NCBI GenBank assembly: GCA_021018995.1
Contig: CM037593.1
Coordinates: 42,111,810 to 42,175,809 of the forward strand
Origin: Chloranthus sessilifolius
Taxonomy: Eukaryota; Streptophyta; Magnoliopsida; Chloranthales; Chloranthaceae
Length of the DNA: 64,000 nt
Direction: 5' to 3'
Under the pieces are notes generated by a model that was not told the origin of the DNA, did no database searches, and worked only from the letters and a program-made list of their open reading frames with translations. Position numbers and translations under genes: made by a program. This document shows, piece after piece, positions 3,421-54,761 of this stretch; the first letter of the stretch is position 1; each line of letters begins with the position of its first letter.

Positions 3421-3783
3421 CATGTTATTAGCTTTTTTTTTAGTTATTTGCTCTCCCTGTTGCATTATTTTCATTTTCTTGTAATTGAGTAGCCAACTAT
3501 ATATATATATATCTTTTGCTACCAGACCCCGGCCTGAGACACTTCCCCCCTTGACAATCAACAAGGGGAGAAATAAAATTACCAACAACCTTACACTTCC
3601 TGTGCAGATACAAAGTAACCTTCAACTATTACTGGGCCAGCTCAGGAAGCATCCAAGTCCCAATAACAGCTGATGGCACCGGAAGCAGGAGTCAAAATGC
3701 ATAAGACAACCAAAAGGAAAAGAAAAAAAAGCAAGGCCAGGTACATCTGAACCAAAAGAACTCTATATATATCAAAATTTTCC

Positions 3784-3820
3784 TTTACATCTATCACCGG
3801 AGGCATACCCCCTGTATACA
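3784..3820 (-). promoter_or_regulatory. Shared 3'-end motif of unit C, left copy
   Basis: On the - strand it reads TACAGGGGGTATGCC then TCCGGTGATAGATGTAAA. The same TATGCCNCCGGTGAnNnnTGTAA core closes units A and B and all three right-copy units, always downstream of the coding or transcribed part. A role in 3'-end formation is inference. Confidence 0.4.
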
Positions 3821-4021
3821 TAATAAACACAAAAAATACAAAGAAAAAGTTACACACCACTACTCCCTATGCTGCCTCTGGGATGGTCGGTCACCGCTAT
3901 CTCCAGTATCATCGGCCCGGAGGCCAGGAGTCTGATCCTCTGAAAGCACGATCCCGGCACCCGGAGTCAGCGAACAATCCCAAGGGATGAAAGGCCCTGC
4001 AATTGAACCCCCCTCACTCGC

Positions 4022-4429
4022 CTAACTAATAGTCCGCCTGGACCGAGAGTGAGAAGGACCCCTAGCAAGTAACTCTTGAATGATGGAGTCCTCCTCAACA
4101 TAGTCCTTGACACGCTCACATATCATACGAAGAGCCTGCTCAGCCTGGGAGCATGTGGCCATCGAATCTGATCGGGCGAGATTACCAACCATCCCATGCA
4201 CCCCACGCTCACTCCTCGCCAGAGGATACAGCAGTCGATCCATCATCGCCTGCATCTCTACCCACACCATCCCCTGTGCTACCTCTATCACCTCTGTCTG
4301 AGTCCCCTGTATGGCAATCATCTTGACGAGCAGATCCTGGCGACTATATGCATCACCAAGAACCTGCCTCACCCCGGGAGTGGTGCTCGCTCGCGCCACC
4401 TCTAGACGCGACTCCTCTAGCTGACGAGC
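4022..4429 (-). CDS. Gene C left, terminal exon 10 (open to its stop)
   Basis: The acceptor is ATGCAG before 4429; the frame stays open for about 136 codons to a TAG at 4022-4024. It begins ARQLEESRLEVARA and holds EMQAMMDRLLYPLARSE and SQAEQALRMICERVKDYVEE, a Glu/Gln/Arg-rich sequence with heptad-like spacing of Leu, suggesting coiled coil, ending in a basic SHSRSRRTIS. The right-copy partner (53373 on) is alignable: ELEQSHLEMQ and AEMQAMIELLQHELRE are the counterparts, but it has stops. An upstream in-frame ATG at 4439 lies in the intron and is probably not used. Confidence 0.55.
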   Translation of the reverse strand, partial: ARQLEESRLEVARASTTPGVRQVLGDAYSRQDLLVKMIAIQGTQTEVIEVAQGMVWVEMQAMMDRLLYPLARSERGVHGMVGNLARSDSMATCSQAEQALRMICERVKDYVEEDSIIQELLARGPSHSRSRRTIS

Positions 4430-5108
4430 CTGCATGACCACACCAAGTCAAGAAAAACCAATATATATTTGCAGAGGAAGGGAAAGTTGAAGAGAAGAGA
4501 AGCACACCAGATCCATGTTCTCCCAAAGGAGGCGCTCAACGGTCGCAACAGTCATCGGATCGGCGGGAGGCGCTAAAGGAACAACAAACATGGACGACTA
4601 CAATGTGAACAAATAGTTATATTAGATAACCTTAAGCCTAAAAATGATAATGAATAGACCATAACTTCACTAATTAAAACATACCTAAGTAGGAACGGGA
4701 GTAGACGCCTAAGGAGGAGCCTCAGGAGCAGAGTCAGAATAACCTGCACGTAAACAATATCAATACACACAAAACTTATTAGCAAACAAAATAAATACCA
4801 AACAAACTATACATGAATAAATTATACCTAACTCTCTGGGCATAAAGAGGTGACAGTTGCCTCCCTCGTTTGGAGATCCTTACCAAGACGATGCTGAAAA
4901 TTCATAACACATGACATCAACAAACTGCTAAAATAATATAAAGTCAGATAACCCAGAGATCGAAGAGGCTCACCCAATGCTCTAGCTCAACCTAGAGCTA
5001 AGCCATCGCCGGATCCTCCCGACTAGAAGAGGCGACCGAAGATGGATCAAACGTCAGAGCTGGATCTCCAATAGCGGCAAGCTCCGCTCTCTACGTGTAT
5101 CAATAAGC

Positions 5109-7648
5109 ACATCTGTTGGTGTACACTTTTTCTGGGTTCCTCTCGGTTCCTGTTGAATGAGTGGCTTCCAATTCTGTGGTGGACTCTAGCAATGTGGCAT
5201 TTAGAATGGTTAAGATAAAAATAAATAATAATGAAAAGGAGTTTTCTAGGAAGATTCCTAGTTTATTGCGATCGCCAGCTGTAAATATTTATCGAAGCTG
5301 CAACACATCAATGATCACGCTTAAGAGCGGGTATGGGTTACTTCTATGCTGAATCGTCTGCCTGCGAACGTCAGCAATAGTCTTTTTCTTAATTTAGATA
5401 GTTTAATTTTCCTTTTATTTCCCGTTGTGGTTGTAGTTCCAGTCAGTTTAGACTTTCCTGATTCTATTGTGAGCTTGGTTATATATAAGTTTATTCTAAT
5501 CCTATTAATAGTCCAGTTAATGTTAATTCCCTAATTTCATTAGAAGTCTAATTAATATTATTTTCCTAATCTTATTAGAAGTCTAATTAATATTAGTGTC
5601 TAGTAATACTAAAAGTCCAATTAATTTCAGTCTCCTATTGGTACAAGGAGTGCACATGTACTAGTTTCGGTGACACTTTAGTTAGTTTGGACATGTTCAA
5701 TTCTACTGAGATTCTAAGCATAGCAAGTATACCAGTTGTATTGGAATTCTCATTAAATCAAGTGTACTAATTGTATCAAAATTCTTACTAAGGCAATTAT
5801 AACAGTCCTACTAGAATTCTGATTGGGATAAAAAAAGTGATTTTAATTAAATTCTAATTTAAGCAAAGGAATTAATATTATTGAGATCTAATTAAAAACA
5901 AGTAAATTGATTTTTATCAGAATCTAATTGAGATAGATAAACTAATTTTATTAAAATTCTAATTAAAGCAATGAATTAACTATACTAAAAATCCAATTAA
6001 AGTAATGAAATTAGTCATACTAAATTCTAATTGAAGCAAGGAATTAATCAATTAAATTCTGATTTAAAGGGATTAATCAGTCATACTAAGATTTAAGGCA
6101 CTTAATTAATTAAACATGTTGAAATACAATAAACCTACTAATTAACTATACTAAAAGGATGAAACAAAAGAAATTAATTAATTCTAAAATTCTTAAAAAA
6201 AGGGGTTTTGGGCCCGCTATGCTAAGGAGGATTGGCCTCGTTCCCGAGTATCCTCCATAAGCTCCCTTGGCAAATTGGATGGATGAGATTAAAGATAGAT
6301 TGAATTTAGATTGTGAAATAATATTTTTAGGCTTTTCAGAGTTGATTTCAAAATAATAATCATGAATTAAATTGGGAACTAAGATTATAGAAGATAAAAT
6401 TAATGTTTAGGATTTTTGAAAGTATTAAAAATAGGGAATTAAAACTATAATTTAAATTCTTAGGACTGTATTCGGGTTCGAAATCAGAAAATCAGGCCGT
6501 ATGATTAAGGACTGGTTCTGAATCGAAGGATTAGAACCAAAAATTAATGATAGGACTGTAGATTAAGATTTTAGAACAGAATTAGAGCCTAGGATCGGTG
6601 TATCAGACCGTTAGATTAAGGACTGGTTCTAGAAACTGAGAACTAGAACCATATATAGAGAATTTCGGTCCGAAAAGGATGCTACGGTCTAAGACTGAAA
6701 AAAAAATTAAAAAAATTCCTAGATCTAGAGATTAGAAGCTATGGCTGGAGACTAAAAGATTAAATCCTTACCTAAGGGTCGGGGCAGCAGAGAGAAATCT
6801 CAAAGATTAGAAGCTTGAATCTCGAAACCATGATTAAGGTGCTCTATGGATTGGTCCTTGGAGTTCTCCAGTTTCGGAATTCGTTCTCTCTCGAAAATTC
6901 TAGCCTTTTTTCATCCAACCACCTGTCTAATCTCTTGGGTGAATTAAGAAAAAAAATCTTTTATAGGTTTTTTTTCAATTACGCGCCCTTTTTCGGGCGT
7001 TTAATCAAATTGCACGCTAGTTTCCCGGCGCTTAATCGCTTTGAGTCGGTCACCGACTTAGTGAGCGATTGGCTGACTTGCTCAGTGAGTTTCCTAGTCC
7101 TAATAGCGTTAGGGCTAATTGCATGCTTAGTAGGACGTGCACAATCTAATTAAGCGTTTCTTCAGAAGAGCTCAATCAAGGAAACTTAAAGGTCAAGGAT
7201 AGTGAGACTAGGTCGGGCGTAGGCCAATTGTGCGTGGGTGATCTGGCATGCAATCCGATCGCGCATTCGATTTCAGGTGCATGATCGAGTCTCGATATGG
7301 TATGAGAAAGAAAGTCTGGTCTGAAAGGGGGACTGATTGCGTGTTTGTGGTCAGGCGTGCAATCGAATTATGCGCGGGGTTTCAGGCGCTTAATTCGGGG
7401 TTGTCCGGGTTTGGTCTCTAGTCTGAAATGCAAGATTATTATTTCAATCTGCATTCTGACTATATACTATTGCTTCAGTATATGGTCTCCCTATGTGGGG
7501 ATCTGAGCCACAGAGCTATTATTTCAGCCTGTGTTCAGCCATGTACTATTATTTCAGTGCATGGTTCCCATATCAGGGTTATAAGATCGAAGATTGCCGA
7601 ATAAATTTATATATTCCGAGAAGGCAAAATGGGGGTGTTTACAACATC
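5109..7648 (-). mobile_element. Tat solo LTR in intron 5 of left gene C
   Basis: The LTR proper is 5114-7643 (2530 bp). On the - strand it begins TGTAAACACCCCCATTTTGC and ends GTACACCAACA. It is flanked by a perfect 5-bp target duplication ACATC (5109-5113 and 7644-7648) with no internal element sequence, so it is a solo LTR left by LTR-LTR recombination. Inside on the - strand: GCGC/AATT-rich U3 (7000-7500), TATA box ACCTATAAAAG near 6958-6967, leader, a GC-rich conserved block (6187-6275) and an AT-rich quasi-repeat part (5480-6180). The matching position in the right copy is empty, which confirms a late insertion. Confidence 0.93.
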
Positions 7649-7798
7649 ATACCTGGCAAGTTTACAATGCTAACAACTAATAAGACCAAACCAATAGGGA
7701 CACTCACTAATTGACCAACCTCAAAATGTAGGCTAGCCGCTACCTCCCGGTCAGCCTGCTGTTGACTGTGATAGGACTTAAGCAATGCCGCCTGATGA

Positions 7799-7821
7799 GT
7801 GACCTCTCTCTCTCTCTCAGT
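7799..7821. repeat. (CT)n microsatellite inside gene C exon 5
   Basis: CT repeats on the + strand; on the - strand they code an ERERE stretch at the start of exon 5 of the left gene C. Confidence 0.7.
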
Positions 7822-7905: not shown

Positions 7906-8412
7906 CAGAGATCGCCGGGTCTCCGCCAGCTGAGCCCTTAGCCCATCTTCCGCCGCCCTAGCCCGAGCCACCTAGGTAGCCAGGGAGCCTAACATCTTCT
8001 CATCAGGACAAGGAGCATACCCCGTTTGCTCCATTGCCCTATGGAGGGCGTCCAAAGCTCCGCAAACACCTGCTGTAAGATGGCCCTGCTCTAGTGTGGC
8101 CAATTTCTCCCTCAATGCTGACGCCGACTCAAGACCGTCGACAGCAAAAGAGCCACTCCTGTGAAATGGATGTGTGAAGAGGCACCCACCGCTAAATGCC
8201 TCGAACCATCTCACAAACTCTCGGGGCATAAGTCTCATCGTGTGCCCCCGTCACCCTGGTCCCCCTAGCTCTGAAATCCTCCATCTGATCTACCATCCAT
8301 CTTGCAAAGTCCCTACCAGGGGGACCCATATATCCACATCAAGGAAGGGCCGGCCAGTCTGAATCACTGGCAAATTGGCGTCCTCCCCAGCCGCGTAAGG
8401 CCTCCAAATCAC
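7906..8412 (-). CDS. Gene C left, exon 4 (end of PMD-like domain, start of tail)
   Basis: The acceptor CTATAG precedes 8412, and the donor GTGAGT follows 7906. It opens VIWRPYAAGED; a WRPY at this point is typical of plant-mobile-domain proteins. A frame break and a deletion follow: the block containing FEKVERIHF...RQLGLPQGVP in the right copy is missing here. The second half is open: REFVRWFEAFSGGCLFTHPF, then SASALREKLATLEQGHL, ALDALHRAMEQTG and PDEKMLGSLAT. These match the right copy at 52.2-52.5 kb at most positions, so the tail was protein-coding when the copies diverged. Confidence 0.6.
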
Positions 8413-8745
8413 CTATAGTCAAACGAGCAAACTCGTTAGTAAAACCCTAGGACCCAAAACAAAGGCACGTCCGAAATATGGACAACACATACCTAACCCG
8501 CATGCATGCCCTCAAAAAGACCTCGTGCAGTTTAAAGTTTCGAAGACCAACGGCGATGCCTTAGCGCCATCCTCCATACGGGAATCGGCAGGAACGTGAA
8601 AGTGATCTTCGTCGAGACCCGCGGGTGAAGGAAAGTGAAGTGATCTTACACCCAAAACTAGAACACACAAAATGCCAAAACAATCACTACAATGAAAGAC
8701 TGGACAACAAGGAGCTCATAACGCTAACAATTAACTAAAACTCAC

Positions 8746-9431
8746 CTGGAGAAAAGGAAAGAAGCCCCCGATGGTGGAGCTGCTCATAGATATGCGCCAA
8801 TGCGTCTGCACCCCAAGCATCAATTGGGACCTGGTCCAGATCCCCAAGAAGTCTTAAAAATAATTTGGTAACGCATCCCCGTGTCGAGGAAGAAAAGAGC
8901 ACTGCACCAAAAATCCCCGAAGCACCCTACCCGCTGCCAATCTCGGCTCATCCACGGGCTCCCGATGCCCCATCACCTCGCAACGTTCCTCAAACAACAC
9001 CCTCAGCTCTGAATGGCTTCTCGAAGGAACGAATCCGCTGGCAAAAGTTTCAAAAAACTAGGTGACTCAGACCATCCTTGGCCTTGACCACTAGACCAAT
9101 AGGCGACACCCAAAATCTCGGCGCATACTCTCAGGTAGTCCCCCGCCATCTGCCTCGTGATTGGCTCCCCCTCGAATCGAAGACTAGTGATGCGGACCCA
9201 GTCCTCTGGGGTCGGCAGCAACATCCCAACTGGGAAAAGCAGCACCTGCTGCTCCTCCCTCCACCTCTCCAGAATCGTCGCGATCAGACTGCGGTCAACC
9301 TGAAAAGGCTCCAACTCTAGAATTGGCCCAAAGTCGAAAGACGCCAATTGCGCCCGTTGGAACTCAAGCAAGGCATGATACCATGTATGGGACTCAGACC
9401 ATGCCGTGCTGATAGCCAGCTGCGGAGGCTC
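8746..9431 (-). CDS. Gene C left, exon 2 (N-terminal half of PMD-like domain)
   Basis: The acceptor TGGTAG lies before 9431; the donor GTGAGTTTTAG follows 8746. The frame is open for at least 140 codons from 9431: EPPQLAISTAWSES, FGPILELEPFQVDRSLIATI, LERWREEQQVLLFPVGM, LLPTPEDWVRITSLRFEG, YLRVCAEILGVAYW. The TPEDWxxITSLxFxG segment corresponds to the T-x-x-DV-x-x-L-x-GL-x-x-G motif of plant mobile domains. After a frame slip near 9000 the tail reads LLGDLDQVPIDAWGADALAH, matching the LxDLxxVxxYxWGxAxLAxLYxxL signature of that family. The right copy (50795-51521) has the same order. Homology call is by motif reading only. Confidence 0.6.
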
Positions 9432-9971
9432 CTACCAAGCAATAAAGCGATAAAAAAGTAACATAAGACTAGCACCTACAACTACAACAAGACTAAAAAA
9501 ACCAAGTAGACCTAATGTTAAAACAATAAAACATATGATGAGCTACAACAACAGTCCATAATAGAGCACGCAAAACATGATGAAAATGAGATAAGAGCAA
9601 TAAAAGAAACGTGATCTAAAACTAGATACAATCATGATGCATGAATGCGCACACAATCAATAACAAATGAAGGTTCGACATAAATAAAAAAGGGGTTTCC
9701 AGATATTAAGAAGCCTATGTTATAACCTAAATGCCTAAGAAACGAAAGGAATTCTTGTTCACAGGTACCTACTTGGCCTCGTGCAAAGAACTCCTCCAAC
9801 GGGATGTGTGAGCACCCCTGACACTGAGCACCCTCATCCTTAGCATCCTCATCCTCGTCGACCTAACCAACCTCAGGTACCTCCTCCCTGACCACCACCT
9901 CAACACCCTCCTCCAAGGCACCAGCACTAGTCTGAACCTCAAAAGTCTCACCAACCTCCATCACTATCATC

Positions 9972-11815
9972 AGCTCTATTGAGAACTGGAAAATACCATT
10001 TTTCACCCCTTAATCTGGGCCTTGATAGACCCTTGAGAGAACTAAATAAGTGTTTTAAGTGCCTATGTTGCAGCTAACAATAAAGACAGGCTTAACCATA
10101 AAAGCAGCTTAAAAGTGCCAAAAAGATGACAATCCATGTCAGTCCAAAGAAAGGAAGTGAAGAAACAACCTCATCAACTGTTGAAAGGTCTAAAGTAAAG
10201 AGGCAAAGACCTGTAGGCGAAGCAGGGAACAATTCGAACAAAGAAATGCACTACAAAGTTCTTTTCGCAAAGAACCTGCACTTTTCGTAAAGAACCTTGA
10301 ACTCTGCGAAAAGGACTAAAACTCCAGGCATAGCTTTCGAAGAGCATCTGAACTCCTCGAAGAGAAGATTGAACTTTGCAAAAAGGTCCCCAAGCTTTGC
10401 GAATAGATCTCCAGAAGTTAGCTTTCTTTTGAAAAGGTCTCCAATCATGCGAAAAGAGCTTGAAGTCACAAGACTTGCGAAAAGACCCTTAAGCTCTGCA
10501 AAAGGTATTGAGATTCTATTCTTTAACAAGGGCAATTCATGTCTGCACGTCCCAATGCGTTTTAAAACCCAAGGACATTCGGAAGATTCGAGCACGAACC
10601 AAAGGCATATTCCACCCCATGAACACCCAAAATGAAATTACTTGGGAACTTCAAAAAGCTCAAACAGATTTTGAATTACATAGAATTGATGCCTCTGTTT
10701 CTGATTGGTGAACCAGATCAAGCATTTGATTGGCGAACAGATCCGGATCACGGTGCTCGACTCTATTGGTTGATCTGAGATCTATCCAATTACGATTGGT
10801 TGATACACATCCGAGCGGCTTAGGGAAAACTATAATAGACGAACCATTTGCCCAATTTGGGTATCCAGATTTTGAGTTTCATTTCTAATCCCCATTTCCC
10901 ATGCGACATGCCAATCCTTGTAATAGCCTACTTTGTACCGGCATTTGAGAGTCGTGAGATCTGCTTTGTAACTCAAAGGAGAGTTTGCATCAAGCATCCA
11001 AGGCAAATCAGAGTTAAGCCGTGCTCTGTAAATTGTAAGAATGAATTTTAAAAGGTTGCTGTAAGCTATGCATTCTCCATTGGACTCATGTCAAGGGTTC
11101 CCTCCGATCTCCTGAGTACATTAGACTCCTTTAGATTCATTGTTTTGCATGCGATTTCCCTTGATTCATTAATCCTGTAAGAATTAGTGTTGGTAACCTA
11201 GTACCTTACAGCATTTGTAGTGATGTTCCTGTTCTGAATTAAGGATTTGGATTGAAGACTATTGGATGGTTTGTGGCCATTAAAGTGGACAGACCATAGC
11301 CATAAGTGTAAGCCTAATCCTTGAATTAGATTTATCTCTCTTACATCTGTGCTTGTAGCCAAATAAAGATTGGATCACCTCTGCTGAGCTTCAGTTTTTC
11401 TCATTAGATTTCAAGGAACAAATCAGATTTAGATATTACTTCTCCATCTTTGTTTCAATCATTCCCCCAACTCGGATCTGGATCATTTCGTTAAAGTTTT
11501 CTTTGTTTTTAGTTAGTTAAACGTGACAAATTCAAACCTCTTATCAGTAATCTAGATAGGATAAGGAGCCAGATCTGGTAGCTCAGATCTGGAGGTTTAT
11601 CTTACATTTTAGACAAATTCTCTGTGGACGATCTTTCACTCACTTACTTTTAAAACTTGCTACAATTGGCCCTGATCTTGCAGGCTAATTCTCTTCTAAT
11701 TGTGCTGATATTTCTTTACTCTTTTTAATATTCTAGATTCAGTATAATTTAGCAGTTGCAAACCTGTTTTCAAAACACACATAAATCAAGCACACTAAGA
11801 AGCAACAACAAGCTC
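9972..11815 (+). mobile_element. Athila solo LTR inserted in exon 1 of left gene C
   Basis: The LTR is 9977-11810 (1834 bp), + orientation, starting TATTGAGAACTGG (ancestral TGTTGAGAACTAG) and ending in an AACACACATAAATCA...CAACAACA stretch, collinear with the LTRs of the full Athila at 29686-43989. A perfect target duplication AGCTC lies at 9972-9976 and 11811-11815. It carries the same blocks of short TTCGNAAAG-type repeats (10250-10510) as the other two LTR copies. It splits the first coding exon of gene C. Confidence 0.92.
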
Positions 11816-12033
11816 CACCTTCAAAACAGTCGTGTAAAGCTGGTCACTACCCTCGAACTCCATCTTGGAAGCAAGAGCTCAAAAAATTGGAAAGAACGAA
11901 AGAAACGACACCAGAAATGGACGGGTAAACAACAAGAAATCACGAAAACACGGAAATAGGAATGCAAGAAAGCAGGGAAGCAGAGAATTGAAGAAAAAAA
12001 TGGATAGCGCGGGTAGAAATGAAGACTCCTCAG

Positions 12034-12460
12034 TTTATATAACACACAACTTGATCGCGGGCCTTGATCCAAGGGCACAATTGAATCGCGCGCTCAATTA
12101 ATAGCGCGTAATAAAAATGTCGCCGGCTCGAAAACCTGCAGCCCGACGATCACACGCCCATATATGGGTGCGTAATCCAATTATGCGCCGCAAAACCTGC
12201 GCGTAATTCCTAAAAACACTTGCATACTAAGCCAGTGACACTCCATTTGTGCGTGTTATAAAGATCGTGAAATTGAATCAAGCGCTCGTCTCCTGACGTG
12301 CAATACCCCTTTCGTCCCTTCCATCACGCGCATCCTTCCAGTCGCACAACTTAATTATGCCCCTTGTGGATTGCGTGTAATTACCCTAGCCTGACAAAAA
12401 AATGTATGCCCAACTGTTGCAACCAGAAATGGAAGCTACAGGCTTGGGCACCAACGAACA
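12034..12460 (-). promoter_or_regulatory. Unit C promoter block, left copy
   Basis: TATA box TTATATAAAC on the - strand at 12034-12043, about 170 bases upstream of the ATG at 11863. Upstream (12050-12390) are many copies of a GCGCGTAATT/AATTNCGCGC motif, the same block seen upstream of the right copy (47230-47610), unit A and the Tat LTR TATA boxes. A TATA followed by a pyrimidine-rich leader is a standard plant pol II promoter layout; activity is inferred. Confidence 0.5.
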
Positions 12461-14160: not shown

Positions 14161-15010
14161 AAAATTTTGTACATCACCAGAGGCATACCACCTGAACATA
14201 CAATCCAAAGCAAAAGCCTAAAACCTAACCTACAACCTAGAACTTGACACGCCACCCAAAAATGTCAAACACTCCATTAGAAGCGGCAAAGAGGCGAGGG
14301 GAGGATTGGTTGGGTAACACATCCCTCCACTTACAACACCTTCCCTTCCGCCATCTTCACCTCCTCCAATGTCGCCTCCTCAACGCTACCTTCACTGCTC
14401 CCTAAAAGGGATTGATGTGAAGGCTAATCTCCTGTTTCCCAACACCGTCCATCCTCAGAGTCACGTCATCACCTAGCATCACCTCAGGTTGAAGATCACG
14501 CAAAACGATGAATACCAAAAGAAACGACATCACGATCGGACGGTTAGATCACACAATATCATAGAAACACGGATATCCAAGCACCAAGAAAATAGAAAAG
14601 GTCAAAACGAAATTGAAAGCATAGGAAGAATGAAGATCCTCCCCCTTATATAGAGCACAGCTCAATCACGCGCCTGATAATTGGCGCACAATTCAATCAC
14701 GCACAGGCAAACAGGCGCGTAACCTCAATCTTGCACAACAGATTGAACGTGCAATCAAACTTTCGCCCGCCCAGCGGGCGTGACACTTTAATCTCATGCC
14801 CTGATAAGAGCGCGTAATCAGATTGTGCGCTATACGATTGGCACACAATTCAAAAGGTTACCCGCACAGTGACCTGGTGATGCCTCAATCAGGCGCTCTT
14901 GTTAGAGCGCGTAATTAGATTCCATGCACGCATTCAAAGGCATAATTGACCCCTTAAAACCATCAATCACGCGCCCCCAAATAGACGCACAATTTAATTA
15001 ACCTCGTCAC
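14160..15010 (-). other. Unit A, left copy: short transcription-unit-like block
   Basis: Upstream GCGC/AATT motif block (14660-15000), TATA box CTCTATATAAGG on the - strand (14645-14656), a leader with GTGATCTAACCGTCCGATCG-like sequence, a short conserved segment (GAGGTGATGCTAGGTGATGA at about 14485), and the shared 3'-end motif at 14166-14195. The conserved segment matches 45160-45200 in the right copy. The leader resembles the leader of unit C, so A looks like a shortened relative of C. No long frame. Confidence 0.45.
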
Positions 15011-16042: not shown

Positions 16043-16836
16043 GTTTTCTGAAGTTTTAACATCGAATTGATCTTAAATTAAACTCCCAAATTTTCAAAAA
16101 TCTTGAATTTTTAAAAATAAAATAAAAATATAATAATAGACTCTTATCTATTGACTTTCATTGCTTATCACTCAAATCCATTCTTTTCCCTAGGAAACCA
16201 AACACTTAATATACTCAATTTAGGAACACACAAATGTCCACTAGAAAAGAGAAGCCTAATGCGCCATTGGTGTGAGCAATGGCACACTCGGTCTGACATG
16301 ACTTGCGAAAGCCTTCACCATTACATGATATTACATCTTATTATTATCGGTCTCTGGACCCTATCTCTGGACATTTGTATGACGCCCCCGATATCTCTAC
16401 TGCATTATTTCCCTCTATTTGACTACCCCTTGCAGTAAGTCACACCATATGGGATGTCCCTTACACTCACGGATTAGGATATGATGATTTTCCTATCATT
16501 TGATAGCCCCTTGTAGTAGGGCGCAACATGCGACAGGATGCCCCTTGCACCCGCAAATTAGGATATGTCGACTTCCCCCATTGACTGCTACTCGCAGCAG
16601 GTCGTGATACATGACGGGGTTGCCCCCTTGGTACCCACGGCAAGGAATACGCCATTAAATAGCTACCACTGGGCCCCTGAATGCTCTATTTTAGCTTGTA
16701 CTGATAGATAAGAAAGCTAAGCATTTTATGTTAGCGCCCCCAGTTCACATTTGTGATTTTCCAAAAAAAAAAAGAGAAGGCACCTCGGATGAGGGGTGTC
16801 TACTTCTTCGATGCATTCTTACTTCACAAGAACACG
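16042..16836 (+). other. Tat-L sequence between ORF D and 3' LTR, with decayed polypurine tract
   Basis: Collinear with 27391-28150 on the opposite strand. It contains two or three quasi-repeats of about 80-90 bp (16450-16660) built around GCGACGGGATG-like cores. The bases before the LTR at 16837 have lost the purine run that Tat-R keeps (27391-27404), by a deletion of about 15 bp. Confidence 0.5.
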
Positions 16837-17296
16837 TGACACTCCCATTTTGCCCTCTCAGAGTATACAGATCTATTCAGTCAACCTTTGACTTTACCCA
16901 TGACTTTTTGAAAAGGACTTACCTTCTCTGAAAGTTTTAAAACCCTAATACAGGGACCATATACTAAAACAATAGTATATGGTTGAACACAGGCTAAAAC
17001 AATAGCTCTGTGCTCAGATCCCATAACCCAAAGGCAGGGACTATATACTGAAATAATAGTACATAGTCGAGACACAGACTGAAATAATAGCCTTGTGCTT
17101 CAGACCCGAGACAATCCTGAATTACACACATGATCCGTGCGCGCAATTCGATTGTGCACCACACCATCAGCACACAAGTAGTCCGCTATGGACTAGTCCC
17201 TAACCTTCTAGAAAAACTTTCTAGAAACCATCTGAGACGCGATTGTGTGCCCTTACCAGCGCGTATAATCGGATTAAACGCCCAATCACCGACGCG

Positions 17297-20200: not shown

Positions 20201-21444
20201 AGCCAGTCAGCCGATCACTCACTAAGTCTGTCACCGACTCAAAGTTCTTAAGCACGTGGTACACGACACACAATTTAATTAAACGCATTGGATAGGGCGT
20301 GTAATTGAAGTTACCCGGTTAATTAAGCACACCCCACATGGCGCGTAATTAGCAAAATACCTATAAATAGACCCCTTTACCTCAACCCACAACACAACTT
20401 TGAGATTCGAGTTTCAAGTTCTTTGCCTCCAAGCTCAGGATTTCGAGATTTCCCATCCTTCAGCGTTTAGGTTTAGGTAATCCCTCTCTAGTTTTAGTTT
20501 CAAATTTCTAGTTCTAGATTTTAGTTCTAGAGGTTAGTCTTTAATTTTTTGTCTTTAGTTCTTAGGTTTAGATTTTAGGTCTCAATTATTAGCTTTGATT
20601 CACTCCTAAACCATAATACCTTCCTTTTAATCTATAGTTTTTAATCTCTAGCTCTAGTTCTTAGTTTCTAGAACCATTTCTTAATGCTATTATCTAATTT
20701 TCAGTCTTAAATCTTAGTTTTTATCCCGATACCTTAATTTTCAGTCATAATTGATCCATTTCGGACCTGGTCTCTAAGTCCTATGACTGCCAAAACTCCA
20801 TGATTAAGCGCAATGCATAATGTGCTTAATCAGATTGTACCCATCAAAATGGGCGCGCAATTAGTCTAATTAGACTAGGACTGGAACACCCTGACTAAGC
20901 CAGTCAGCCGATCACTCACTAAGTCTGTCACCGACTCAAAGTTCTTAAGCACGTGGTACACGACACACAATTTAATTAAACGCATTGGATAGGGCGTGTA
21001 ATTGAAGTTACCCGGTTAATTAAGCACACCCCACATGGCGCGTAATTAGCAAAATACCTATAAATAGACCCCTTTACCTCAACCCACAACACAACTTTGA
21101 GATTCGAGTTTCAAGTTCTTTGCCTCCAAGCTCAGGATTTCGAGATTTCCCATCCTTCAGCGTTTAGGTTTAGGTAATCCCTCTCTAGTTTTAGTTTCAA
21201 ATTTCTAGTTCTAGATTTTAGTTCTAGAGGTTAGTCTTTAATTTTTTGTCTTTAGTTCTTAGGTTTAGATTTTAGGTCTCAATTATTAGCTTTGATTCAC
21301 TCCTAAACCATAATACCTTCCTTTTAATCTATAGTTTTTAATCTCTAGCTCTAGTTCTTAGTTTCTAGAACCATTTCTTAATGCTATTATCTAATTTTCA
21401 GTCTTAAATCTTAGTTTTTATCCCGATACCTTAATTTTCAGTCA
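17297..21444 (+). repeat. Six tandem copies of a 697-bp LTR promoter segment
   Basis: Copies at 17297-17993, 17994-18690, 18691-19369, 19370-20050, 20051-20747 and 20748-21444. Lengths are 697, 697, 679, 681, 697 and 697. Each starts TAATTGATCCATTTCGGACC. Copies 1, 2, 5 and 6 look nearly identical (for example one T/C difference near 17428). Copies 3 and 4 carry many single-base losses. Each unit spans distal U3 motifs, the TATA box and the leader, so the LTR has six promoters in series. Breakpoints share TAATT/TAAT, which suggests microhomology-driven duplication. Confidence 0.95.
17607..17616 (+). promoter_or_regulatory. First of six LTR TATA boxes
   Basis: CTATAAATAG followed by a C/A-rich leader. 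Repeated at 18304, 18989, 19667, 20361 and 21058, one per tandem unit. Other LTRs of the family have CTATAAAAG or CTATAAATAG at the same place (48867, 55433, - strand 6958-6967 and 26548-26558). Confidence 0.7.
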
Positions 21445-42121: not shown

Positions 42122-42127
42122 AAAACT

Positions 42128-44549: not shown

Positions 44550-45455
44550 TGCATGAACCAAAGCGCGTGAATCAACTACGCGCTAAGGAAGAAGTGCATG
44601 ATTGGGAGGATGGTGGCTCTATTGCGTGCTTATGATGTCGCGTGTAATCTAATTATGAGTGTGGTGAAGCACAAGCAATCGAAACATCGGCGGGCTTGTA
44701 AGGGGAGATGTTCGGGTGTCGATTCAGATTTCGTGTAGCTGTGTAAGCGTTTAATTCAATTGCACGCTCTGACTAGTGCACGCGATTGAAGAGTCACCAA
44801 GTCACTGTGCGGGTGACTTTTAGAATTCCACGCAGAGTGGAGGATGCGTGATTTGATTACGTGCAGGATTGTCTACATGGAATTGGAGCGTCGGGACTTT
44901 TGAGCAGAAGAAAGTCTAGTTGCGCGCTTTAACTATTGCGCGCGATTGGGATTCCGCACAGGTGTCTATGCGCATAATTTGATTATGTGCTTGATTTCTG
45001 GCGCTTAATTGGCTGAATGCCTATATATGTTTGTACTTCATTTTTTCTTCATTCTCTCAGTTTTATTCTAATTTCCGTGTTTTGGTGATATCTCGTGATC
45101 TAATCGTTTGATTGTGATGTCGTTTCTTCCGATGTTCGTTGTTTCGTGTGATCTTCGGCCTGAGGTGATGTTAGGTGATGATGTGACTCTGAGGATGGTG
45201 GTATTAGGAATGAGGCGATTGATACATCCTTCATTATTGTTAGAAGGTGAAGACGACGCAAGGGAAGTCCTCCAAATGGATGGAAAGGGTGTTCCCAACC
45301 AATCCTTCCTTTCGCCTTCTGTTGCTTCGCTATCTTGGGGTTTGTGTCCGTTTTGGGGTTCTAGGTTTTTGTTTTGGGCTGTATGTTAGGGTTTTAGGTT
45401 TTCGTTTTGGGTTATATGTTTAGGAGTTATGCCTCCGATGACACTTGTAAAAGAA
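44550..45455 (+). other. Unit A, right copy: short transcription-unit-like block
   Basis: GCGC/AATT motif block (44550-45010), TATA box CTATATATGT (45021-45030), leader with GGTGATATCTCGTGATCTAA near 45083, a 93-codon open frame at 45108-45389 (holds DLRPEVMLGDDVTLRM), and the shared 3'-end motif GTTATGCCTCCGATGACA (45427-45452). Only a part of the frame (45160-45200) is conserved in the left copy, so protein coding is uncertain. The leader is similar to that of unit C (GCGATATCTTGCGATC near 47713). Confidence 0.45.
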
Positions 45456-47229: not shown

Positions 47230-47623
47230 TGAAGCTAGGGAATTGCGCAATGAAAACAAGGCGCCTAATAAGATTGCGTGCCTTTACAACTGTGAGGGAA
47301 TGAGAGGTTTGAGGGGTTGATTATGCGCTTTAATGGGCGCGTATATTTTAATTGCACGCACAATGTAATGGGCGCAATCCAAACGTCCCCCTGGTCACTG
47401 TGAGGGTGACCTTTGGGATCGCGCACATAGATTGTTGCGCGTAATGTTATTGCACATCTTGCCTAGGCCGCGCAATTGGTGAGTAGCGTATTTTCGGGCG
47501 GGCGACAAATTGGTTACGCGCATGTTCCAGTGTGCGCGATTAAATTTGCGTGCGGTCTTCAATGCGTGCAACTCAAATGCGCGCTCAAAGCTGAGCGCGC
47601 AATTAAGTCATGCTCTATATAAG
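47230..47623 (+). promoter_or_regulatory. Unit C promoter block, right copy
   Basis: At least ten GCGCAATT/AATTGCGCGC-type motifs (47230-47605), then TATA box CTATATAAGG at 47614-47623, and a pyrimidine-rich leader to the ATG at 47792. It mirrors the left copy (12034-12460) and the U3-TATA layout of the Tat LTRs. Confidence 0.5.
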
Positions 47624-47791: not shown

Positions 47792-48034
47792 ATGGAGTTT
47801 GAGAGTGGTGACTAGATGTACCTGACTACATACGAGCTAGAGCGGATGGTCGAGGAGGGAGGCGAGGCCTCCAAGGTCCGTACTGGTGTTGATGTCGTTG
47901 CTGAGGGTGACACTGAGGTAGTCATCAAAGATGAGGCACCTAAGATCGGTGGGACCGATGAGGGTGGCGAGGATGCTACTCCACACAAGCCTGCGATGAA
48001 GATTTTGATGGAGGAGTTCTTTGCCCGAGATCAG
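47792..48034 (+). pseudogene. Gene C right, exon 1
   Basis: The ATG at 47792 matches the left ATG at 11863 (both MEFE...GD). After the stop at 47813 the frame is open: MYLTTYELERMVEEGGEA, then an acidic Val/Glu/Asp-rich stretch and LMEEFFARDQ before the donor GTAGGT. The left copy ends LEEFFARGQ before the same donor. Acidic, likely disordered N-terminus. Confidence 0.55.
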
Positions 48035-48192
48035 GTAGGTACGCGTGAGCAAGAGTCCTTCCGTTATTTCTAGGCATTTAGGTTATAACATAGACTTCTT
48101 TGGATAGAAACCCTTTTAATTTATGTCAAACCTGCATTTAGCGTTCGCGTGCGTGTACATTCATGCATCATGTCGATATATAGTCTTAGGTC

Positions 48193-50569
48193 ATGCTTGT
48201 AGACACCCCCATTTTGTCTTCTCATAGTATACAACTTGTTCGGTCAACCTTTGACCCCTTTTAACTCGCAGTGTGGGACCATGCAATAGTACATGGCTGA
48301 ATGCAGGCTGAAACAATAGCTCTGTAGCTCAGATCCCAGCATAGGGAGACTATATATTAAGCAACAGTATATAGCCGGAATGCAGACTGAAACAATAGTG
48401 TTGCATTTCATTCTAGAGACCATACCCAAATAACCTTGAATTACGTGCTAGAAACCCAGCGCTCAATTCGATCATGTGCAAAACCACAAGCATGTGACTA
48501 GTCCACCTTTCAGACCAAAGTTCCTTTCCTAGACCGATTTGAGACTCGATTGCGCGCCTGAAATAGAGTGGGTGATTGGATTGAGCGCTTCACCACCTGT
48601 GCGCAATTGGCCTATGCCCGACCTAGTCTTACTACCCTTGACTCTTATGTTTCCTTGATTAAACATTTTGGATTAAATGCTTAACCAGATTGAGCGCATG
48701 ATAACATGCACGCAATTAGTCCTAATTTGTTAGGACTAGGAGATTTGTTGAGCAAGTCAGCCGGTTGCTCATTGAGTCGGTGACCGACTCAAAGTGATTA
48801 AGCGCCAAAATCCAGGCGCACAATTCAATTAAACATCCGTAAATAGGCGTGTAATTGAAGGAAAACCTATAAAAGCTTTTTTCTCGAAGAGAGAGGGGAG
48901 GTTGGACGAAAAAGGCTAGAATTTTTTAGAGAGAAGGAATTCCAAAGACAGAGAACTCCGAGGACAAACCCATAGAGCACCCTAATCCTGGTTTCGAGAT
49001 TCAAGCTTCTAATCTTCGAGATTTCTCTCCGCAGCCCCGACCCTTAGGTAATAATTTAATTTTTTTAGTTTCCTACCATAGCTTATAATCTCTAGGTTTA
49101 GGAGTTTATCTTCAGTCTTAGACCGTAGCACCCTCTTTGAGTCGAATATTCTATTTCTTGTTTTAATTCCCTGCTTTTAGAACCAGTCCTTGATTCGTTG
49201 GTCTGATATACCAACCCTTAAGACCGAATTCTACTCTAAAATCATGATTTACAGTCCTATCATTAATTTATTGTTCTAACCCTTAGAGTTTAGAACCAGT
49301 CCTTAATCATACGGATTGATTTTCTGATTTCGGACCCAAATTTAGTCCTTAAAGTTTTTTTTTTAATTTCAATTTCTTAGTTTAATACCTCCAAAAATTC
49401 AAAATATTAATTTTAGTTTTCATAATTCTAGTTTATAATTCAATTTGCCCTTATTGTTTCGAAATCAACTCTGAAAAGCCTAAAAATATTACTTTACCAT
49501 CTAAAATTCATTTTTTTTTCTCATTAATCTCAGCCACCCGATTTGCCCAAGGGAGCTTACAGAGGGTACTCAAGAATAAGGCCAATCCTCCTTAATATAG
49601 CAGGCCCAAACTCCCTTTTCTTTAGAGTTTTTTAGAATTAATAAATTACGTTAATTAGTTTATATCTAAACATAATTGATTATTTGTATTAATTAGGCCT
49701 TGATATAATTATTAGTGTTAAATCAGAATTTCCCTTTCATTAGTTTAGTTAATTGATTGTTCAAATCCGAATTCTAGGAAGTTTAGTTTATTCATGATTA
49801 GTTATATTTTACCACCATAAATTCGTCAATAATTAGGGTCGTAGAAAAATCAGTCCTTTCATTTCTGTTGATACTATAATAGAAAATTAAATTTATTGCT
49901 TTACTTAGGCCCGTAGGAAAAAACAGTCTTTTTATTTCAATTAGAATCATAGTAGAATTATTATGAGTGCTTTAATTAGAATTATAATAGAATTACCACA
50001 ATTGCTTTAATTAGAATCCCAGTACAATGAGCATGCTTAATTTTAGTTAGAATATTATTGGAATTGATACATATGCACTCCTAGTACCAATAGGAGACTA
50101 ATACCGATTGGACTTTTAGTAATACCAGAACCTTGATGCTCACTGGACTCTTGACAGCATCAGAACACTAATATAACTCACCTTAATAAGCCCACACAAT
50201 CAGAGCATAATAATAATAGAATTGGAAAATCTAAATTGACTGGAATTATAATTACAAAGGGAATTAAGAGGAGAATTAAACTAACTAAACTAAAGACAAG
50301 CACTGCTGCTGATGTTCGCAAGTGGACGATTCAGTATAGAAGTAACCCACACCAGCTTCACAACGTGATCACTGATGTATTGCAGCATCGTTAAATATCT
50401 ACTGCTGGCGATCACAATCAAACTAGGAAACTTCCTAGAAAAATCCCCCCTTTTTATTTATTTTTGTCATTCCAAACACCGCATTGCTGGAGTCCACCTG
50501 GACAGAATTGGAGCCACTGATTCAATGGGAGCAGAGAGGAACCCAAAAATAGCACGCACCAACAATGTT
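48193..50569 (+). mobile_element. Tat solo LTR in intron 1 of right gene C
   Basis: LTR 48198-50564 (2367 bp), TGTAGACACCCCCATTTTG to GCACGCACCAACA. Flanks ATGCT (48193-48197) and ATGTT (50565-50569) differ at one base, so an older insertion. TATA at 48867-48875; a splice-donor-like TTAGGTAATAATTT follows the leader near 49046; conserved GC island at 49545-49617. No internal element sequence on either side. Confidence 0.88.
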
Positions 50570-50794
50570 TATTTTACTGTTTTGTGTTATTCATGTTTTG
50601 CATGCTTATTGTAAATTTCTATCATGATTATAGTACTATTTCTTTTATTATTATTGTTATATTATTATTTTTATCATCGTTGTGATTATTCTCATTAAGA
50701 TTAGGCTTAGTCACAATCTTTAATTGGTCTTAGCGTAGGTACAAATTTTTGGCTTACTATTTTTTTTTTTCGATTTTGTTGTATCGTTCGTTTG

Positions 50795-51521
50795 GAGCCT
50801 CCGGTGCTAGCCATTAGCACTGCGTGGTCGGAGTCCCACGCATGGTATCGTGCCTTGCCTGAGTTCTAACAGGTGCGGTTGGTACCTTTCGGCTTTGGGC
50901 CGATTCTGGAGTTGGAGCCCTTCACGGTTGACTGTGGTCTGATTGGGGCGATCTTGGAGTGATGGCGGGAGGAGCAGTAGGCACTGCTCTTCCCGGTAGG
51001 GATGTTGCTGCCGACCCCTAAGGATTGGGTCCACATCACTGGGCTCAGGTTTGAGGGGGCACCGGTTATGGGGCAGATGGAGAGTGATTACCAGGTAGTG
51101 TGCGAGGAGGTACTTTGTGTTGAGTACTGGTACAGTGGATCCGGGACTGGATTGGTCCGGGTGGTGTCACTTGGTTCTATGACACCTTTGCTATCGGGTT
51201 CGTCCCTCCAAGACATCATTCTGAGTCGAGGATGACATTACAGGCATGTCGTGAGGCGATGGTGTGTCGGTGCCAGTGACGGAGCCAAGAGTGGTAGCAG
51301 ATCGGGTACTCTGAGCATTCTTGATTCACTTTTTCGGGGCGGTCCTCTTCTCGTCCTCGACTCGAGGGTGTGTGACGGGTCTTCTCTTGACTTTGCTGAG
51401 GGACCTGGATCGGGTGCCCTCCTACACTTGGGGGGTAGCAGCGTTGGCGCACCTCTACAAGCAGCTCTACCGTAGAGGGAGAGGTGTTGCAACCATTCGA
51501 GGCTTCCTCTCTTTCCTCCAG
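50795..51521 (+). pseudogene. Gene C right, exon 2 (N-terminal half of PMD-like domain)
   Basis: EPPVLAISTAWSESHAWYRA, FGFGPILELEPFTVDCGLIG, LLFPVGMLLPTPKDWVHITG, LRFEGAPVMGQM, then frame changes and LRDLDRVPSYTWGVAALAHL with YKQLYRRGRG and ATIRGFLSFLQ before donor GTGAGTTTT. The last part is the best match to the plant mobile domain signature (VxxYxWGxAxLAHLYxxL...GGxLxLLQ). It has at least three stops. Confidence 0.6.
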
Positions 51522-51850
51522 GTGAGTTTTAGTTAGTTGTTATTTTTTTTTTTCGTAACACCTTAGTAGTCTTAGTGTTTATTTTAGTGACGATTTCTGA
51601 CATATATGACCACTTCTCCTTCCTACCCCTGCGGGTCCCGAGGGAGGTCACTTTTACATTCTCGCAGATGCATGTGTGGAGGAGAGCATTGGGGCACCGT
51701 CGCCAGTCGTCGGATCTTCAGACTGCGCGAGGTTTACTTGAGGACATGCACGTAGGGCAAGTATGTGCCATTTGTGTTGTCATGGTGTTTTAGGTATTTA
51801 GGTGGTAGATTTTTCTCATTGATGGTCGTTTTATTTTCTTCTGATTGCAG

Positions 51851-52470
51851 GTGATTTAGAGGCCCTATGGTGCTGGAGAGGATGTCGGGTAGCCGATGAT
51901 TCAGTCTGGCCTGTCCTTCTTTGATTTGGACATTTAGGTCCATTATTTTGAGAAGGTGGAGCGTATCCACTTTTCTCGAGTGGTTCGCCAATTGGGGCTC
52001 CCTCAGGGAGTCCCTCTAGAGATTCACCACCGAGTGGCGAGGAGGATGATTGGTCCCTCTAATCGGATATTCTCGTTGAGGATGGCGGCTCAGATTGAGG
52101 ACTTCAAAGCCGGGGGACTAGGGTTATCGGGGAGTGCAATGAGGCAGATTCTCGTGAGTTTTTTAGATGGTTCCAGGACCTAGGCGGTGGTCGGCTCTTC
52201 ACCCATCCTTTCCATGGGAGTGGCTCTTTCATGGTGGGTGATCCTGAGTCTGCTTCGGCTTTGCGGGAGAGGTTGTCCGCATTAGAGCAGGGCCACCTGG
52301 GTGCAGGTGTCCGCGAGGCGTTAGACGCCCTCCATAGAGTGATGGAGAGGACAGGGTGTGCCCCCCATCCAGATGAGGAGATGTTGCGGTCTTTGACAGC
52401 CTCCGTCTTCCAGGCCAGGGCCTCGGAGGATGAGCTGAGGGTTCAGCTTACAGGGACCCAACAATCTCTG
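51851..52470 (+). pseudogene. Gene C right, exon 4 (C-terminal half of PMD-like domain and tail)
   Basis: Acceptor TTGCAG before 51851. Reads a RPYGAGED start, then FEKVERIHFSRVVRQLGLPQ, matching the VExHxxDRVxRQFGLxQxIP motif of plant mobile domain proteins. Then RMAAQIEDFKAGGLG, a one-base deletion near 52150, and the open tail PESASALRERLSALEQGHLG, AGVREALDALHRVMERTG. Donor GTGAGTTTA after 52470. Confidence 0.6.
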
Positions 52471-53372
52471 GTGAGTTTATTCATTTTGTTTGTAAGCTTT
52501 GTTCATCTATTATTTTGGTGTACTGGTCTTGATTTGGTCCCCTTTGTGTTGGTCAGATCATGAGAGAGGGTGAGGTCGCCCATTAGGTGGCATTGTTAGT
52601 GGTGTTCCGCAGCCAGGACTAGGCTGGCCGGGAGGTAGAGGCTAGTCCATGCTCCGAGATCGACCATCTAGTGAGTGCTGGTTTGGTTTTATTAATTGTT
52701 AGAGTTGTTCATTTTTTCATATCTGATGTGTTTGTTATGTGTCATGTTTGTAGAGGTCAGAGCTATTTGGTGCTGGGTGGTGTTTGATCCTTCTTCGGCT
52801 ACGTTATCCAGTTGGGAGGATCCAGTGATAGCCCAGCTTCGTGCCGAGCTAGAGCAATGGGTGAGTTTCTTCGGTCTTCTAAGTTATACGGTTATGTATT
52901 GCTTTAGCAATTCACTAACATTGGGTTGTACATTTTCAGTGTTGACTTGCTGAGGACCTCCAGACGAGGGAGGCAGCGGTTGCCTCTCTACGTCCTGAGA
53001 GCTAGGTATAGTGTGTTTAGAGCATGTGTATGTTGGTTTGTTTTGTTTCATTAATTAGTTTTATCTGATGAGTTCCTTGTTTTTCTATTTTATTCTTGTG
53101 CAGGTTTTTCTTTACTCTGCTCCCGAGGCTCCTCCTTAGGAGTTTACTCCCATTCCTTCTCAGGTATATTTAGTTGGTGTGGTTATATTTCGTTTTGATT
53201 TTTAGTCATAGTATTTTTGATGTTCTTTCTCTATCTCTTGCAGCTGCCTTCGTCTGAGATTCCTCTGACGCCACTTGCTGATCCAGTGATTCATGCAACT
53301 GTCGAGCGCCTTCTTTCGGAGCATGTTGACTTGGTATGCCTTTTCTTATCTTAACTTCGTGCTTGTGTGTAG

Positions 53373-53930
53373 GTCCGCGAGCTGGAGCAGTCACATTTAG
53401 AGATGCAGTGTGCCCAGGCTTGGTAGGAGGTCCATGAGATTCCATCCGATCTCACCGATCGTCATCTTCAGGAGGTGACTGTCGACTTACTGGTATAGCA
53501 GAGGACCTGTACAGCGAAGCTAGAGAGTGTACGAGCCGTAGCTCATGCTGAGATGCAGGCGATGATCGAGCTTCTACAACATGAGTTGCGAGAGTCAGGG
53601 GGAGAGTGCGAGGGATGCTCGATCACTTTCCTAGGTCAGGATCGAGGGCTTCTGGCTCGCTGGCTAAGATCCATCGACAGACTCGTGAGCTCATGAGGGC
53701 TTATGCTCAGGTAGACTCAGCTCTCGAGCCTTATTCACCTTGGACCCTTCACGCTCTCGATGTGTTTCGAGCCAAGCGAGCGAGGGAGGTTTTATTGCTA
53801 GGCCTTCCTCTTCTAGGAGGCCTTCACCCAGGCCCCAGGTTTCAGCTGAGGCCTCAGTGGACCAGGCTCCTGGTCTTCGGGTTGATGAGGCTGGAGAGGG
53901 TGATGAGTGTCCCTCGTAGAGGCAGCGGAG
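53373..53930 (+). pseudogene. Gene C right, terminal exon 10
   Basis: Acceptor GTGTAG before 53373. VRELEQSHLEMQCAQAW, then stops; AKLESVRAVAHAEMQAMIEL matches the left EVIEVAQGMVWVEMQAMMDR region. Frame shifts near 53610. The 3'-end motif follows at 53974-54008. Confidence 0.5.
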
Positions 53931-54007
53931 GGAGTAGGGCATTCTTTTTTTGTATACTTTTACCCATTGTATATACAGGGGGTATGCCCCCGGTGACAAA
54001 TGTAAAA

Positions 54008-54761
54008 GAGAAAATTTTGACATATATAGAAAAGGATTTTTGGTTTAGATGTACCTGGTCTTGCTTTTGGCTTCTTTTTTTTATTACCTTTCATGCTTTG
54101 GCTGTCTGTTTTTGATGTCGTCGCCTATTATTGGGACTTGGATGCTCCTTTGAGTTGGCCCAGTAATAGTTGAAGACTACGCTATATCTGCACATGAGGA
54201 TGAGGTTATTAGTAATTTTATTTTCCCCCTTGCTGATTGTCAAGGGGGGGGGGCATCTCAGATCGAGGTCTAGTAATAAAAGGGGAGATCATTTTTTTTT
54301 CTCTTTTTTTTGTCTATTTTTTTTTTCTTTCTTTTCTTTTCTTTTCTACTACTTTATTACAAGGAGATGAAAATAATGCAACAGGGAAAGCAAATAACTG
54401 AAAAAAAGTTCTAAAAACCATAAAAACAAAATTAAAAATGCCCGAGTGTAGGAGTGTGATAGAGTAGGCAATGTGGTATTGCCAGCGATTATCCTTAGTG
54501 ATAGGTTCGTTGTTTTGCATCTTCTTTATGGACAAGCAGGGGCTTTAAGGCGACTTATCTTCCAAAAAAAAAAAATGCCCTAGTGTCAAGGTGCAATGGA
54601 GCTTTTTTGAATTTTTGGCAGGTACTCGAGTCTATAAGGAGTCGTGGGTATTTGGCGAGCTAATGTCGAGAAAAGTTCTTCAATACTATCGCTAAACCAA
54701 GTGAGGTCAGTTAGTCATATATGCAGTATATCGATGTTCTTCCTTAGGCAGTGGTTGTCCC
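54008..54761 (+). other. Flank of gene C up to the Tat-3 insertion
   Basis: Collinear with 3050-3780 on the - strand. A G run (54245-54254) and a T/C-rich stretch (54289-54350) are present. GTCCC (54757-54761) should be one copy of the Tat-3 target duplication. Confidence 0.5.

Follow-up and report, generated by a model that had tools for sequence, protein, structure and literature searches.

Plant mobile domain (PMD) proteins are known as extra open reading frames (ORFs) of plant retrotransposons. The available sections of the literature covered here (PMC6317226, PMC9289625, PMC11963269, PMC7264820, PMC7156037, PMC5418596, PMC12786077, and PMC8616336) report extra PMD ORFs in 57% of Ogre elements (PMC6317226), and another survey names PMD as the commonest non-canonical domain. 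Here, we analyzed a stretch of 64,000 nucleotides from Chloranthus sessilifolius (C10:42111810-42175809, hereafter the window) in which two Tat-type (Ogre/Retand-like) Ty3/gypsy elements carry two decayed copies of a PMD gene with ten exons. The assembly searched for relatives comprises 2.17 Gb in 32 contigs.

The closest described systems are the PMD-bearing Ogre/Tat and Gypsy elements (PMC6317226; PMC5418596, clades PMD-A1/A2), which likewise have an extra PF10536 ORF and the order RNase H, second RNase H (aRH), and integrase, given as the Ogre/Retand order (Neumann 2019, PMC6317226). However, the only Ogre intron described in the available text lies between gag-prot and reverse transcriptase (RT), and the extra gene is called an ORF, whereas the gene of the window is divided into ten exons, keeps its splice sites, and has an internal promoter whose core is laid out like that of the long terminal repeat (LTR). 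The Retand TRP28 ORFs (PMC11963269) resemble it as they are antisense, lie between pol and the 3' LTR, are near-universal in their family, and have tandem repeats nearby. Nevertheless, they hold TRP28 (PF04195) instead of PMD, and they are described as ORFs, the word intron being absent from the available sections (PMC11963269). The Grande gene23 of maize is also an antisense accessory gene transcribed from its own promoter, according to the title of its report and a review (PMC7264820), although PMD is not stated for gene23 in these sources. Another antisense gene named in this literature is HBZ of human T-cell leukemia virus type 1 (HTLV-1) (PMC11963269). It likewise serves a reverse-transcribing element as an antisense accessory gene but encodes an unrelated protein. 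HBZ is spliced and has its promoter in the 3' LTR, whereas splicing is predicted for the gene described here. The strand logic by which an intron is kept or lost via the RNA stage is that of the reverse-orientation intron cassettes of retrotransposition reporters (PMC12786077), but those cassettes are engineered and the nine introns here are natural.

A 2025 review describes plant LTR elements as generally free of introns, Ogre and EVADE being the exceptions named in the part available, and a 2020 review (PMC7264820) calls for antisense and spliced transcripts to be examined. Neither a multi-intron antisense PMD gene nor an LTR-like antisense promoter was found in the available sections, a scope that excludes Steinbauerova 2011, the most relevant report, and Gomez-Orte 2013. 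The original prediction had proposed an undescribed system. This appears to hold for the multi-intron form and the LTR-like antisense promoter, but not for the protein type, since the frequent presence of PMD as an extra ORF in Ogre and other Gypsy elements has already been published. We consider it very probable that an abundant Tat-type family bears, between pol and the 3' LTR, an antisense PMD gene of ten exons with its own LTR-like promoter, whose nine introns are spliced.

Exon structure of the antisense gene

Self-comparison and element ends show that the window is a nest of retroelements. The same ten-exon gene lies in it twice (Table 1): copy 1 on the minus strand (11863-3860), antisense to the pol of Tat-type element 1, and copy 2 on the plus strand (47792-53937), in the oppositely oriented Tat-type element 3. 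The original prediction of two diverged copies that match in exon order and in GT/AG junctions was confirmed. Both lie where they had been placed, except that copy 1 ends with a conserved TAG stop at 3862-3860 and not at 4022 (53935-53937 in copy 2).

All nine introns are in phase 0. Exons 5, 7, and 9 are equally long in copies 1 and 2 (114/114, 66/66, and 90/90 nt), exon 8 measures 59/60 nt, and exons 1, 2, 4, 6, and 10 differ through insertions and deletions. The intron 1 acceptor of copy 2 is lost (TTTG), and its intron 2 acceptor is uncertain. The T content is 38-57% in introns and 25-26% in exons. Nine strict donor hexamers are common to both copies on the gene strand, six of them being donors of the model, and none on the other strand; shuffling of alignment columns resulted in a mean of 2.4, and 0 of 1000 shuffles reached nine. 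Likewise, the copies have 16 acceptor-like sites in common on the gene strand (six are model acceptors) and none on the other strand, compared with a shuffle mean of 5.2 and a maximum of 14 in 300 shuffles.

These data bear on a reading without splicing, in which separate short antisense ORFs are divided by T-rich spacers that resemble introns. Single exons are indeed open frames; however, splice signals occur at the projected places, the introns all have the same phase, and the PMD runs across exons 2-4, which makes this reading very improbable.

Protein identity and coding signal

The predicted PMD identity was borne out by Pfam. Read-throughs of exons 2-4 matched PMD (PF10536, curated cut-off of 34.9 bits) with 84.2 bits (1.3e-23) and 99.4 bits (3.2e-28) in the two copies. 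One exon piece of copy 1 alone reached 32.6 bits, just under the cut-off, and the uninterrupted exon-2 frames of the four genome copies tested, from the eight described below, scored 47.9-76.1 bits. The exon pieces scanned had no match to PF04195 (TRP28). The coiled-coil tail of the original prediction was not borne out beyond one exon-10 piece that was modelled as helices with low confidence (predicted local distance difference test, pLDDT, of 51), and the exon-10 pieces scanned had no Pfam match over the cut-off. The structure models of two exon pieces (pLDDT 38 and 51) were too poor for a structure search, and the search against solved structures returned 0 matches. In a protein database that holds plant proteins, the full read-through of copy 2 scored against 0 of 7992 candidates, and a two-row profile of exons 2-4 scored against one of 7996, which comes from Colocasia esculenta and is 29% identical (3.5e-37). 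The exon 2 query against viral contigs gave seven pattern matches, none of which was confirmed.

Mismatches between the window copies are distributed over the three codon positions as 0.28/0.27/0.45. The ratio of nonsynonymous to synonymous substitution rates (dN/dS) is 0.29 in the gene frame (bootstrap 0.23-0.36), compared with 0.46-1.02 for the remaining five frames. Along the gene, it amounts to 0.43 for exon 1, 0.21 for the PMD, 0.24 for the stretch that begins with the second part of exon 4 and ends with exon 9, and 0.47 for exon 10. An alignment version in which exon 8 was out of frame had a codon-position excess with p=2e-17 and a dN/dS of 0.28. Among the eight genome copies, the 28 pairwise comparisons of the initial 345 nt of exon 2 had a mean dN/dS of 0.17 (range 0.10-0.27). 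The third-position excess and the low dN/dS (0.17-0.29), strongest in the gene-sense frame, show selection on the protein.

The same coding signal argues against a role of the antisense transcript as RNA, either double-stranded RNA (dsRNA) or a precursor of small interfering RNA that regulates the element, with the protein being incidental. Antisense transcripts of plant LTR elements have been proposed as dsRNA sources, in the available part of PMC7264820, and an upstream unit, T1 (see below), has the same promoter layout with a hairpin-like motif downstream and no PMD seen. Taken together, we find an RNA-only role quite improbable.

Copies in the genome and place in the element

The genome search with exon 2 found at least 150 places, including that of the window (9812 candidates, part of which were scored; weakest E=2.3e-51). 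Eight genome copies, picked for long open exon-2 frames, were examined. The exon order is kept in all eight (exon 5 was found in seven, and exon 8 was left out of the search), in agreement with the ten exons of the window copies and of the original prediction. With the intron 8 donor and the intron 7 acceptor left out of the counts, GT occurs at the exact projected donor place in 51 of 63 cases (5-8 of 8 at each intron except intron 5, with 5 of 7; 0.079 by chance), and AG at the exact acceptor place in 49 of 63 (5-8 of 8 at each intron except intron 4, with 4 of 7; 0.074 by chance). Exon 3 has both splice signals at matching places in seven of the eight copies. When shifts of up to 12 nt were allowed, the signals were found in 6-8 of 8, some of the shifted matches not being credible. 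In the genome copies measured, intron 1 has ~290-380 nt and the others mostly 65-120 nt. The exon lengths in these copies are projections from the query; hence, the splice signals were used as evidence instead.

Downstream of the gene, pieces of the second RNase H and integrase lie antisense in seven of the eight copies, accompanied by RNase H in six. From the other side, eight loci were taken by rank from an integrase search (ranks 2-9 of 150 scored; 39339 candidates), and seven of them harbor antisense gene exons; four span exon 1 to exon 10, one of them lacking an exon 3 match. The seven of eight gene-first loci and the seven of eight integrase-first loci indicate that the gene is a regular component of the Tat-type family and not a passenger of two elements. 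Thus, the antisense place between pol and the 3' LTR, which had been predicted from the window, was recovered in both sets, and the family relatives sought in the host genome carry the gene, wholly or in part, at seven of eight integrase-chosen loci.

A host gene that was nested or captured by chance in a few elements would explain neither the number of places nor the constant orientation to pol, and we regard it as extremely improbable. PMD does occur in host genes too, and three genome loci (L001-L003) have uninterrupted PMD frames of 739, 641, and 645 aa. These frames, however, have no intron inside the PMD and no Tat pol match within ~4 kb, and they are likely host MAIN-like genes. Among the top Pfam loci L001-L008, L007 alone has integrase antisense nearby.

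Twenty loci from among the top Pfam scorers (L009-L028) belong to a second, abundant PMD repeat family, which was left out of the gene-structure counts. Its exon matches, where found, are ~20-60% identical. In the 8 kb examined, Tat pol is absent from these loci apart from an RNase H match of 25% in one of them. GT directly follows the same PMD position (~182) in 15 of the 20 loci. This family favors an origin in which a Mutator-like (MULE-type) DNA transposon with a PMD gene entered an ancestral Tat element and was then fixed, and PMD-MULE fusions exist, as reported in the available part of PMC5418596. However, the promoter of the gene resembles that of the Tat LTR. Such an origin, which is compatible with a regular antisense gene of the Tat-type family, seems unlikely to us.

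Promoter, upstream unit, and hairpin-like motif

As predicted, the gene appears to have its own promoter: a TATATAA box lies ~175 bp before the ATG in each window copy, and a TATA box was found in all eight genome copies. The octamer GCGYRATT was spotted by eye and is, therefore, post hoc for the window. It starts exactly 19 bp before the TATA box in all five Tat-type LTRs of the window (0-1 mismatch) and in the antisense promoters (0-2 mismatches). From 110 TATAWA sites in the window, 13 carry the octamer (at most one mismatch) at 17-21 bp, ten in Tat-type LTRs and three in antisense promoters (one read by eye). The eight genome promoters represent data independent of the octamer definition; six have the octamer (at most two mismatches) at -19, whereas 0 of 151 other TATAWA sites in the genome loci do. 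Genome-wide, the exact pattern of octamer, 19 bp, and TATA occurs 4532 times versus 67 for the reversed pattern, the places being unclassified. The four antisense promoter stretches contain 12 octamers versus 0.2 expected; no excess was found in the Athila-like element (1 versus 1.7) or the gene body (1 versus 0.9). Hence, the promoter code of the element itself seems to serve the antisense gene as well. This points to a common control, or to an LTR as the ancestor of the antisense promoter.

About 2.6 kb upstream of the gene promoter lies the promoter of unit T1, alignable to the promoter and leader of the PMD gene and with a short conserved ATG-led stretch. The T1/T3 promoter likeness is 58 in copy 1 versus 31 for the shuffle; copy 2 alone reaches 30, with no excess over the shuffle maximum of 33.

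A hairpin-like motif of the type GGGGG TATG CCCCC occurs in gene orientation three times per element, at 3815(-), 12789(-), 14195(-), 45420(+), 46750(+), and 53975(+). Two-sided changes were observed in three of five pairs (39 of 500 shuffles reach three), and 28 of 30 cells are paired (5 of 500 shuffles reach this percentage). The strict pattern is present in three of the eight genome copies. A candidate function of the motif as an RNA terminator is weakened by folding z-scores of -0.4 to -2.1.

Other features of the window

The pol end of element 1 matched Pfam RT_RNaseH (1.4e-13) and Integrase_H2C2 (1.5e-9). Between them lies a putative second RNase H, a weak match to RVT_3 (0.01 and 0.14, under the cut-off), an arrangement that would place the element in the Tat lineage. 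Its 3' LTR contains about six tandem units of ~697 bp (17297-21448), most 94-100% alike and one only 74% alike over part of its length, in an element that is otherwise old. Each unit carries the octamer-19-TATA core promoter. Element 3 is split by an Athila-like element, whose lineage was assigned by layout, and is apparently cut by a third Tat-type element with its LTR start at 54762. A tRNA-Arg primer site is one of the marks of Ogre, and a primer-site-like sequence follows the LTR of this third element at ~57355.

Beside the Athila-like insertion, a 341-bp unit occurs in two tandem copies (28907-29585). An Rfam snoR71 match (41346-41451, plus strand; 52.5 bits, gathering threshold of 40) lies in the Athila-like gag region, on the strand opposite to the element. 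Between both Tat-type 3' LTRs, frames resembling the RT of long interspersed nuclear elements (LINEs) were read by eye (22490-25290, plus strand); three pieces scanned gave no Pfam support.

Table 1. Features of the window, with positions counted from its first nucleotide.
Feature	Position	Strand	Remark
Tat-type element 1	pol 1-2300; 3' LTR ~16835-22480	+	self-comparison, element ends
Element 1 pol end	3..2300	+	Pfam; RNase H 3-275, second RNase H (weak) ~423-920, integrase 1203-~1950
3' LTR of Tat-type element 1	16835..22480	+	~six tandem units of ~697 bp
Tat-type element 3, 3' LTR	25290..27380	-	opposite orientation; self-comparison, element ends
Athila-like element	29686-43989		splits Tat-type element 3; LTRs 94.7% identical
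T1 TATA box (second antisense), copy 1	14646..14652	-	exact octamer 19 bp upstream
T1 TATA box (second antisense), copy 2	45022..45028	+	1-mismatch octamer at 19 bp by eye; script gave another at 33 bp
Antisense gene TATA box, copy 1	12034..12041	-	octamer-like site, 2 mismatches, starts 19 bp upstream
Antisense gene TATA box, copy 2	47616..47623	+	exact octamer starts 19 bp upstream
Exon 1, copy 1	9773..11863	-	ATG at 11863; solo LTR inside
Solo LTR of neighbouring Athila-like element, splitting exon 1 of copy 1	~9976-11812		target repeat AGCTC
Exon 2, copy 1	8746..9431	-	N-terminal half of PMD
Exon 3, copy 1	8493..8657	-	165 nt; PMD
Exon 4, copy 1	7906..8412	-	PMD end and tail start; 115-bp gap versus copy 2
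Exon 5, copy 1	7708..7821	-	114 nt
Solo Tat-type LTR, intron 5 of copy 1	5122..7643	-	target repeat GATGT
Exon 6, copy 1	4974..5090	-	
Exon 7, copy 1	4828..4893	-	66 nt
Exon 8, copy 1	4685..4743	-	
Exon 9, copy 1	4508..4597	-	90 nt
Exon 10, copy 1	3860..4429	-	stop TAG
Hairpin-like motif GGGGGTATGCCTCC, copy 1	3793..3815	-	just after stop
Exon 1, copy 2	47792..48034	+	ATG at 47792
Solo Tat-type LTR, intron 1 of copy 2	48198..50566	+	imperfect target repeat ATGCT/ATGTT
Exon 2, copy 2	50795..51521	+	PMD; acceptor lost
Exon 3, copy 2	51589..51760	+	PMD; start uncertain
Exon 4, copy 2	51851..52470	+	PMD end and tail start
Exon 5, copy 2	52557..52670	+	
Exon 6, copy 2	52754..52860	+	
Exon 7, copy 2	52940..53005	+	
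Exon 8, copy 2	53104..53163	+	
Exon 9, copy 2	53244..53333	+	
Exon 10, copy 2	53373..53937	+	stop TAG
Hairpin-like motif, copy 2	53975..53997	+	after stop

Discussion

We propose that a ten-exon antisense transcript is driven by an internal TATA promoter, whose core layout is that of the LTR. Removal of the nine phase-0 introns would yield the mRNA of a PMD protein of ~900 residues, as estimated from the summed exon lengths, carrying a tail that is probably helical. The full-length sense RNA would be the template of reverse transcription, and the introns of the gene would appear there as reverse complements without usable splice sites. By the logic of established retroelement biology, the introns would be copied intact because the sense RNA has no splice signals for them. 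The antisense mRNA would be spliced, yet it would not serve as a replication template as it lacks what replication needs.

Several observations weigh against this reading. The two window copies are dead, since their 790 aligned codons hold 11 and 13 premature stops in addition to several frameshifts, and the exon identity between them (0.57-0.86) is little above that of seven of the nine introns (0.51-0.69). From 20 unshared premature stops, 11 are opposite CAG, CAA, or TGG in the other copy, the pattern expected from cytosine loss. Two in-frame TAGs, one closing exon 7 and one within exon 8, are common to both copies; they fit independent CAG-to-TAG decay (Fisher p=0.37), and exon 7 ends with CAG or CAA in all eight genome copies. 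The choice of these eight by long open frames is biased toward better-preserved copies, and every one of them is nevertheless defective in some exon or splice site; the two splice sites left out of the counts add to this side. Two of the eight gene promoters do not have the octamer at -19 (three and eight mismatches). The eighth gene-first copy has no pol piece within 3.5 kb, three of the seven positive integrase loci show later exons only within 4.5 kb, and the remaining integrase-chosen locus, L051, has no gene exons within 4.5 kb.

Concerning the role of the element-borne protein, we tentatively suggest a nuclear function by analogy with MAIN and MAIL1, in which it may help the element escape or tune host silencing. 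The available sections describe MAIN and MAIL1 as PMD proteins of the silencing pathway and the PMD-A clades as exclusively Gypsy-encoded (PMC5418596), and a counter-silencing role has been proposed for element PMDs (PMC8616336). As a further point on the opposing side, an experiment tying an element-borne PMD to silencing was not found in the literature searched. A broader and more doubtful proposal is a two-way regulon. The LTR and the internal antisense promoters would share the GCGYRATT-19 bp-TATA code, placing the genomic RNA and the nine-intron PMD mRNA under the same control; the introns would be kept indefinitely, and the PMD protein would counter the PMD silencing pathway of the host.

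Introns should be erased by reverse transcription; nevertheless, nine of them appear to have been retained in many copies of the Tat-type family through antisense coding. In the available sections, the extra-ORF surveys consider single long ORFs, of at least 250 codons (PMC6317226) or mainly of at least 600 bp (PMC11963269). Such surveys would catch only pieces of a multi-intron gene; therefore, accessory genes with introns may be more frequent than they suggest. The LTR-like antisense promoter provides a testable handle on the control of the gene, as well as on the reason why a domain related to MAIN and MAIL1, two host silencing proteins, is retained in Gypsy elements.

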